Positions 46,388 to 49,166 of a DNA stretch of 64,000 nt are shown here, one piece after another; the stretch's first letter is position 1, and each line of letters opens with the position of its first letter. The notes beneath the pieces are model-generated. The model searched no databases. It was not told where the DNA came from and worked only from the letters and a program-made list of their open reading frames with translations. The translations under genes were made by a program, and so were the position numbers. The DNA is taken from positions 124,001 to 188,000 of the forward strand of contig DASYRE010000031.1 of assembly GCA_036004685.1 (NCBI GenBank). The letters are read 5' to 3'. Source of the DNA: Candidatus Polarisedimenticolia bacterium. Its GTDB lineage: Bacteria > Acidobacteriota > Polarisedimenticolia > Gp22-AA2 > AA152.

Positions 46388-47335
46388 TCATCCCAGCCCC
46401 TGGCGCTCCCAGGCCTCCTGGATGGCGCGCTCCCGGCGCCGCTTGGCGATCCGTCCCAGCAAGACCAAGAGAGTGATTCCGGCCCAGAGCACGCCGGTGC
46501 TCGTGACTGCCGGGACCCAGCGATAGGCGAAGTTCACCTGGTCGCGCCATCCCGCTTCCATCTCCCCCAGGCTCCTCCCCGCTCCCTTGCGGAAGGCTTC
46601 GGCGAATCCCGCCCCGGCCGCCGACTCCGCCAGGATCCGGCGGACCGCGCCGGGACGCTCGCGCTCGACGTAGGCGATGAAGCTGAACGACTGAGCATAG
46701 GCGGCCCGGGCCCCCGACTCCCCCGGCGGGAAATCGCCGGAGAGCTCGTCCAGGCGCGGCGACGGCCCGACGAGAAGTGTGGTGCTGAGAGCGAACACGT
46801 CGCGCAGGCTCCAGCGCCGCGACTCCATGACCGCCACCCCTTCGTTGAACCAGCGCGGCAAGGGGCCCGACCGAGGCGGAAGCGAGTTCATCAGGACGTG
46901 CGTCAGCTCATGGCCGAACAGGGAGAGCAGATCTTCGAACGGATAGGTCGCGACCAGATCGCCGCGCAGGTTGACTTCGGACGAACCTCCCGGAACGAAG
47001 CCCACGGCCCATCCCGGCGGCCCCTGATCTTCTCCCCGCGCGGAGCGCGCCGGCGGGAGAATCCGGACGAGGATGCTCTCGGGGGCCCGGAGTCCGAGGT
47101 CGCGCTCGAGATCGGATAGGATTTCCGGGGCCTGTTCGGAGAGGATTCGCGCTTCGGTGCCGTTCCCCTTCTGGTAGAGGATCCGGAACGGCGGGCGGCT
47201 CATGGCGAGCCACTCGCCGGCCGGAACGGGCGCGCCCGACAGCGCCACCGTCAGGATCATCGCCGAAAGGATCGCGAGAATCTTTCGCTGCCTCCTGGGC
47301 ATCGCTCTGAGAATCCTCCGCCGCATTCCGGTCAC
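46388..47335 (-). CDS. peptidase MA-family membrane-anchored metalloprotease
   Basis: A 315-residue protein with a signal or anchor helix (about residues 19-40) and a C-terminal membrane helix (STGVLWAGITLLVLLG). The catalytic motif is LFGHELTHVLMN (HExxH from His142), followed by PRWFNEGVAV with the downstream glutamate, the pattern of peptidase MA gluzincins. The usual substrate is unknown. GTG 47335 is preceded by AGAGGAA; ATG 47302 is an alternative. It converges with the zinc-ribbon gene at 46372. Confidence 0.85.
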   Translation of the reverse strand: MTGMRRRILRAMPRRQRKILAILSAMILTVALSGAPVPAGEWLAMSRPPFRILYQKGNGTEARILSEQAPEILSDLERDLGLRAPESILVRILPPARSARGEDQGPPGWAVGFVPGGSSEVNLRGDLVATYPFEDLLSLFGHELTHVLMNSLPPRSGPLPRWFNEGVAVMESRRWSLRDVFALSTTLLVGPSPRLDELSGDFPPGESGARAAYAQSFSFIAYVERERPGAVRRILAESAAGAGFAEAFRKGAGRSLGEMEAGWRDQVNFAYRWVPAVTSTGVLWAGITLLVLLGRIAKRRRERAIQEAWERQGLG

Positions 47336-47405: not shown

Positions 47406-48644
47406 ATGAGAACCGGCTCGCGCCTCCGATCCTTCCTGGGGATCTTTCTGGCCGCGGCGGCGGCGTTCGCCGTCGCGCTGATACCGGCCTGGATCATCCA
47501 GCCCTTCGCGCCGCAGACGGCCCGCGGGCTGGAGATCGCCTTCCTGGTGAAGAAGTGGGGCAAGCTCGCCGCGCCGCTTCTGGCGCTGGCGGCTCTGCTC
47601 ATCGCCATCCGCCTATGGAGAGCCTCTCCCGGATGGTGGCGCAGGCCGATCCTCGTGATCCTGGTGGCGCTCGCGTTCGTCTCGGCCTGGTTCGCGTGGC
47701 AGAACCACTTCGAGTGGCTCTTCCACTCCCTTCCCCAAGCCGGCTTCGCCCGCGCCCAGGAGGCCGGTTTCGTGGAGCCGGGCGACATGGTCCTCTCCGT
47801 GGCAATCGGCCAGGACGCCGCGGCCTATCCGGTGCGCCAGCTGGCCTACCACCACCTGGTCGCCGACGCCGTCGGCGGCGTCCCTCTCGTCGCCACCTAT
47901 TGAACGCTCTGCCACACCGGTCTGGTGTGGGAGACGACGGTGGATGGTCGGGCGCTTCATTTCCACCTCTCCGGCATCAACAACCAGAACTTCATCATGC
48001 GGGACGAGGAGACCGGCTCCTGGTGGCAGCAGGTCTCGGGAAAGGCGATCGCCGGACCGCTGAGAGGGCGGCGGCTCAAGCCGGTCCCTTTCGACGAGTC
48101 GAGCTTCGCGACCTGGAAGCGGGAGCACCCCGGCGGGAGGGTGCTCCGCAAGGAGACGGCCTTCGCCCGGCAGTACGCGCCGGCCGATTGGGAAAAGGAG
48201 ATCGCGGCGCTTCCCGTGGTGACTCGCGCCAAGCCCGGCGAGCCCCTGCCGCCGCGCGCCTTGATCTTCGGCCTATCCGCCGGCGGCGAATCCCGCGCCT
48301 ACCCGCGCGAGCGGCTCGCTCCGGAAGGGCCGATCAACGATCGACTCGGAGGGGTCCCGGTGCTGGTCGTGTTGGGCGAGGATGGCAAGACGGTGCGGGC
48401 CTTCGAGCGGCGCATCGGCGGCCGGACCCTGGAGCTGTTCCTCAGGCCCGCGCCGGAGCCCTGGGGGTTGGTCGACGCGCAGACCGCCAGCACCTGGGAT
48501 TTCACCGGCCGCGCGGTCGCGGGCCCGCTGGCGGGCGAACGGCTACCACCCGTTCGGGCCCTGCCCGACTACTGGTTCGACTGGAAGACCTACCACCCGG
48601 ACACCAGCGTCTACTCCGCCGGACTCCCCGCCGCTCCACGCTAG
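47406..48644 (+). CDS. DUF3179 membrane protein, probable selenoprotein
   Basis: One reading frame of 412 residues, interrupted only by TGA at 47901-47903 (position 166). The N-terminal third has three membrane helices. The DUF3179 domain then begins FVEPGDMVLSVAIG and VGGVPLVATY. The TGA comes next, followed by TLCHTGLVWE. In DUF3179 proteins this place normally reads TYCPLC, so the TGA replaces the first cysteine of the CxxC pair. A perfect hairpin with loop GGTCT follows. The downstream half is intact, with the repeat-like GGVPVLVVLGEDGKTVRAFERRI, so decay is unlikely. The family may bind copper or act in redox chemistry; the function is not established. Reading TGA as Sec gives a full-length protein. 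Confidence 0.85.
47912..47930 (+). promoter_or_regulatory. SECIS-like hairpin of the DUF3179 gene
   Basis: CCACACC (47912-47918) and GGTGTGG (47924-47930) pair perfectly around the five-base loop GGTCT. The loop starts 15 bases after the TGA codon. GGTCT is also the apical loop sequence of the E. coli fdhF SECIS, where the G and U bind SelB. The element lies within the coding frame directly after the TGA, as required in bacteria. Confidence 0.75.
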
Positions 48645-48687: not shown

Positions 48688-49166
48688 TTACTCCTCCTGC
48701 GACGCGAGTTTTGAAGAGTCGAAATCGTGTCCTTTCTTCCAAACCCCCCAGGCGATACGAGCGAGCTTGTTGGCGAGGGCCACGGCGGCTTTATTGTGGC
48801 CTCGCCGGCTTTGGATACCCAGCGCCCAGGCCTGCAGGCGGCCGAAGGCGGCGGCGCATTGGGCATGCCACAGAATGGACCGAGCGCCGTGAATGAGCAG
48901 CATGCGGAGATAGGAATCGCCGCGCTTGCTGATGGCGCCAAGGCGACGGTGCAGACCGCTGGAGGATTCCCGGGGAATGAGGCCAAGATAGCTGGCGAAG
49001 TGACGACTGGTCGGAAAGCGCTGGACGACGCCGACGAAGGCGACCAGGGCGGTGGCGGTGAGCAGGCCGACCGCGGGAATGGTTCGCAGCCACGCGACCA
49101 CCGGCGTCTATTCAGCGAGGGCTTCGAGATCGGCTAAAATGGTGCGGATTTTTCGGCCTTTTGACG
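48688..49166 (-). mobile_element. IS110-family transposase remnant
   Basis: On the minus strand the C-terminal half of an IS110/IS116/IS902 transposase is readable: AWLRTIPAVGLLTATALVAFVG, the GLIPRESSSG segment, and RLGAISKRGDSYLRMLLIHGARS. An in-frame TAG lies just upstream (near 49108), after the readable ADLEALAE. The N-terminal DEDD nuclease half is absent. No terminal repeats were found. The element is therefore inactive. It marks the left end of the accessory region. Confidence 0.8.

Follow-up and report, generated by a model that had tools for sequence, protein, structure and literature searches.

Comparison with Described Selenoproteins

A DUF3179 selenoprotein was reportedly described by Zhang and Gladyshev in 2007 in a deltaproteobacterial symbiont of Olavius algarvensis. 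For bacterial SECIS elements, the closest described case is that of E. coli fdhF, in which the loop GGUCU is located just downstream of the UGA. Two reviews include DUF3179 (PF11376) among the selenoprotein families, with the motif UxxC/T; both trace the listing to Zhang and Gladyshev 2007, and neither mentions Acidobacteria or Acidobacteriota (PMC9312934, PMC13188914). The entries that they name are MBW1804167.1 and MDJ0986319.1. An older survey counted four selenoproteins of Acidobacteria in three families (PMC1794560), and deep-Sep reports one Acidobacteriota genome with three known selenoprotein genes (PMC12013277).

The window analysed here, a stretch of 64,000 nucleotides from Candidatus Polarisedimenticolia bacterium (Acidobacteriota), carries a DUF3179 gene with an in-frame TGA. 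A first, sequence-only reading took it for a selenoprotein gene and knew of no established DUF3179 selenoprotein, a statement that does not hold in view of both reviews (PMC9312934, PMC13188914). As the family is already listed, the genes described here are taxonomically distinct members and not a new family. The window protein and the symbiont entry, compared by its description, belong to the same Pfam family and have Sec in a UxxC motif. The window protein differs in that it belongs to an Acidobacteriota subfamily with UTLCHTG and three transmembrane helices. New are the near-universal occurrence of the predicted Sec in this Acidobacteriota subfamily, the two SECIS registers among the predicted DUF3179 selenoproteins, and the duplication of the DUF3179 domain, whose repeat has a tentatively Rieske-like fold in the models. 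Selenocysteine would be the normal, not an exceptional, residue in this subfamily across Acidobacteriota.

The Gene and Its Protein Architecture

The frame from 47406 to 48644 has the TGA at 47901-47903 (codon 166) as its sole interruption, as the sequence-only reading had noticed and the translation confirmed. The following features were assigned:

47406..48644, + strand: predicted DUF3179 selenoprotein gene encoding 412 residues, residue 166 being Sec; the coordinates include the stop (translation with TGA as U; PF11376; continuous frame and GC3)
47421..47513, + strand: predicted transmembrane segment 1, residues 6-36 (hydropathy; helix in the AF2 model)
47553..47627, + strand: predicted transmembrane segment 2, residues 50-74 (hydropathy; AF2 model)
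47637..47705, + strand: predicted transmembrane segment 3, residues 78-100 (hydropathy; AF2 model)
47739..48191, + strand: repeat 1, residues 112-262, with His149, Sec166 and Cys169 and a weakly Rieske-like fold (hhalign, models, Foldseek)
47850..47852, + strand: His149 codon (conservation in the DUF3179 groups)
47901..47903, + strand: TGA, predicted selenocysteine codon, Sec166 (TGA in the same column of relatives)
47910..47912, + strand: Cys169 codon, last residue of UTLC (conservation; residue count)
47912..47930, + strand: putative bacterial SECIS hairpin CCACACC-GGTCT-GGTGTGG (folding, hairpin scan, Gly172 codon bias)
48228..48611, + strand: repeat 2, residues 275-402, degenerate, without Sec or Cys (model, hhalign, sequence)

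The match to DUF3179 covers residues 112-400 and spans the TGA (E=1.9e-66; 224.9 bits versus a gathering score of 27; Pfam), and GC3 is 0.90 upstream of the TGA versus 0.88 downstream. NCBIfam contains no matching model for the protein, and an Rfam scan of the gene region gave only a sub-threshold chance match on the opposite strand. The full-length gene almost certainly encodes a DUF3179 membrane selenoprotein, with Sec decoding at codon 166. Ordinary gene callers see two truncated pieces, so that DUF3179 selenoproteins are probably widely misannotated.

The positive-inside rule suggests that the domain after transmembrane segment 3 is located outside the cytoplasm. This DUF3179 domain is an internal duplication, repeat 1 aligning to repeat 2 in hhalign with a probability of 99.8 (E=1e-27), and confidence in the AF2 model is high (pLDDT 89.6). 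Sequence searches for solved homologues returned none that was convincing with the protein as query and none with the alignment as query. The whole protein contains no Cys or Sec apart from Sec166 and Cys169. His149 reaches 89-100% conservation in each of the four DUF3179 groups, and at position 150 the window's subfamily has His where the others have Glu.

Predicted Function and Likeness to Rieske Proteins

The three N-terminal helices would anchor two duplicated beta-domains outside the cytoplasm. The first of these would hold Sec166 together with the invariant His149, Cys169 being close by. The most likely role of Sec166, in which our confidence is about even, is that of a redox nucleophile acting through its selenol, and in the window's subfamily Cys169 would be the resolving partner.

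Alternatively, an inserted Sec could ligate a metal or an Fe-S cluster within a fold derived from Rieske proteins instead of acting as a redox nucleophile. Repeat 1 shows a consistent, weak fold similarity to Rieske [2Fe-2S] proteins, which make up most of its top 40 Foldseek matches (best E 0.03, TMt up to 0.60) as well as the first 15 matches of the whole model. In addition, the spacing His149-x16-Sec166-x2-Cys169 (His-x16-C/U-x2-C) is comparable to the Rieske arrangement C-x-H-x15-17-C-x2-H, if the ligands correspond as we infer. However, all Rieske E-values in Foldseek are above 0.001, and a profile-profile comparison, made with only six Rieske sequences, gave no support (probability 0.4%). 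The Rieske ligand set of C-x-H and C-x2-H is not found in the DUF3179 protein: no conserved Cys precedes His149 at the first ligand position, and Cys169 stands where Rieske proteins have the second His. Since a second Sec subfamily is mostly without Cys169, too few ligands would be available there for a cluster. In view of the weak Foldseek likeness and the missing profile support, the selenol redox role is preferred and the ligand role is considered unlikely. Slightly less likely still is the more specific form of the latter, in which DUF3179 would be a duplicated Rieske-derived fold with Sec replacing a cluster cysteine and ligating an extracytoplasmic metal or Fe-S centre. We are not aware of any established natural Fe-S cluster in which selenocysteine is a ligand.

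As a separate observation, a TAG replaces a residue in the second cluster loop of the Rieske gene L160 (G000:C24:17275-17505; CP-TAG-HAW), which is a nonsense change or an assembly error.

Conservation of the TGA and Co-Occurrence with the Sec Machinery

The hairpin of the window folds only modestly better than shuffled sequences (z = -2.3; 6 of 200 shuffles equally good), and comparison across relatives therefore had to decide. The sequence-only reading had proposed an alignment of homologues around the codon and a search for selA, selB, selC and selD. Each of the 52 tblastn relatives that cover the position has a TGA at precisely this codon; these relatives come from other genomes, nearly all of them Acidobacteriota MAGs. 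A survey of 149 related genomes yielded 80 further DUF3179 loci, from 56 genomes, and their aligned Sec column contains TGA in 42 loci, Cys in 24 and Ser, Asn, His or Gly in 14. The Cys homologues have YC[PT]LC there, so the TGA indeed lies at a conserved DUF3179 cysteine, as had been suggested. Other in-frame TGAs of the read-through frames almost always lie clear of the domain, either ahead of the start or at the natural end. An apparent frameshift was noted a few codons past the Sec TGA in L055, on a MAG contig.

In a second phylum, that of a Gemmatimonadales MAG, the great majority of the listed DUF3179 genes are without TGA and four have one. In three of these four (L192-L194), the TGA falls in the same column; the identical hairpin is present in L192 and L194, whose genomes have SelB.

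The source assembly (3.84 Mb, estimated completeness 100%) contains the whole set that was looked for, namely SelA (564 bits), a full-length SelB (327 bits), SelD and a tRNA-Sec with anticodon TCA. The SelD gene (L072; G000:C8:40973-41899, - strand) has one in-frame TGA (SSSGG-U-AAK) and its product is probably itself a selenoprotein; Sec-containing SelD is known elsewhere. SelA and/or tRNA-Sec were found in 35 of the 35 genomes with the TGA form, the source genome included, and both in 30 of them, while the TGA form is present in none of the 30 genomes without both SelA and tRNA-Sec (Fisher p=1.7e-4, kinship ignored). One of these 30, the machinery-free genome G126, in which no full SelB but only EF-Tu-sized matches were found, carries a Cys orthologue, L112 (TYCTLCHTGLVW), with the motif YCTLCHTG, and this gene is placed within the Sec clade on the tree. 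A full SelB was not found in G114 (75% complete, tRNA-Sec present) and G312 either, despite their TGA-type genes.

These data bear on two other readings of the TGA. As a true stop, sequencing error or pseudogene mutation, it would leave a 165-residue membrane peptide and a protein starting from GTG 47925, and both pieces do appear as separate ORFs in the ORF listing. However, more than 90 homologous loci share this TGA, with coding conservation continuing through the codon, and the hairpin and the co-occurrence with the Sec machinery speak against a true stop. A random error or decay would not recur in one column, which makes a sequencing error, one of the cases that the sequence-only reading had named as a refutation, or a pseudogene very unlikely, and the reading as a whole is highly improbable. 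The least probable of all is a code change by which UGA is read as Trp or Gly: the frame is open with any residue at the TGA, but homologues that do without Sec have Cys in this column, as does the orthologue of the machinery-free genome, and tRNA-Sec(UCA), SelA and SelB are present in the genome. Stop, frameshift, pseudogene and alternative-code readings were rejected on the basis of conservation and machinery co-occurrence.

The SECIS Hairpin and Its Two Registers

The arms at 47912-47918 and 47924-47930 form a perfect 7-bp stem, CCACACC/GGTGTGG, around the loop GGTCT (47919-47923). The spacer between TGA and stem is 8 nt (47904-47911) and 15 nt separate the TGA from the loop, in agreement with the hairpin proposed at the outset. 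The loop is the same GGUCU as in the fdhF SECIS and is similarly close behind the UGA, whereas the window stem is a perfect 7 bp without bulged U, with the loop 15 nt after the UGA. The bSECIS model has a G in the first two loop positions, a stem of 4-16 bp, a loop of 3-9 nt and a UGA-loop distance of 16-37 nt (PMC13188914). The window hairpin agrees with this model in loop G, stem length and loop length, and its spacing of 15 nt (16 to the first loop base) is at the lower edge of the range. SelB and Sec-tRNA(UCA) would bind the CCACACC-GGUCU-GGUGUGG hairpin, 15 nt after the UGA, and selenocysteine would be inserted at residue 166. Through this SelB-dependent insertion, the 412-residue protein would be made and not the 165-residue fragment.

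A hairpin with a stem of at least 5 bp and the loop NGUNW follows 75 of the 88 distinct Sec codons. None of the 37 non-Sec homologues has such a hairpin, and among 3933 control codons taken from the same genes the rate is 0.13%. The scan covered hairpins with 5-nt loops, and the NGUNW pattern was defined after the sequences had been seen, so that cleaner tests come from the contrast with non-Sec homologues and from the covariation. In the subfamily of the window protein, 15 nt separate the TGA from the loop, which is nearly always GGUCU. As the protein is also conserved at the hairpin (HTGLVW), the codon choice is the informative part: the loop codon Gly172 is GGT in 54 of 65 cases (83%) versus 12% at other conserved glycines. 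One C-G pair of the hairpin is replaced by U-A in L044.

The loop is found at 20-21 nt from the UGA in other subfamilies. In the second Sec subfamily (mostly WUPL), it starts at 20 nt, the hairpin being located 5 nt further on. Its stem is paired in 99.4% of cells, with double changes in 7 of 7 pairs, versus 26-49% paired in slid controls, and its covariation of 0.565 compares with 0.20 for shuffled sequences and no more than 0.11 for slid controls. This covariation, together with the machinery, the conserved TGA and the Sec/Cys exchange, supports the original proposal of Sec at the first Cys of a UxxC pair with a SECIS downstream. In L069, on an Acidobacteriales MAG contig, the stretch after the TGA (GGTCTGGTCTGG) can fold a hairpin at +20 instead of +15, and this gene may be an intermediate that illustrates the register shift.

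Subfamilies and Evolution

In a tree built with a quick method, the window protein sits in a starred set of 39 Sec rows and one Cys row. At least six changes between Sec and non-Sec, in either direction, are required on the tree, four of them forced by well-supported branches. All members of the window's subfamily have Cys169, but it is mostly missing in the second Sec subfamily, where UPLA, UPLT or similar motifs prevail. Because that subfamily is mostly without the second Cys, UxxC is not essential to Sec forms, and it was rejected as their common defining motif.

The Cys-type DUF3179 proteins (WHEIVND...YC[PT]LC) have the domain, His149, Asp154 and the CxxC position in common with the window protein. 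They differ in having Cys for Sec and Glu for His150, and no SECIS-like hairpin. A further branch of 14 genes (e.g., L119, L121, L122, L127, L133 and L145), with Ser, Asn, His or Gly at the Sec column, retains His149 and Glu150 and is probably a non-redox branch. As His149 is kept there without Sec or Cys, a redox role would not be universal in DUF3179. The paired Sec and Cys versions, the two SECIS registers and the natural Sec-to-Cys exchange make the chemistry of DUF3179 testable.

Genomic Neighbourhood

The window is not part of any conserved neighbour cluster, and no conserved operon partner was found. The divergent neighbour (46388-47335, - strand) resembles a peptidase MA-type metallopeptidase with a HELTH motif (PF13485, below the curated cut-off). 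Directly downstream, at 48688-49101 on the other strand, lies a fragment of an IS110/IS116-type transposase (PF02371).
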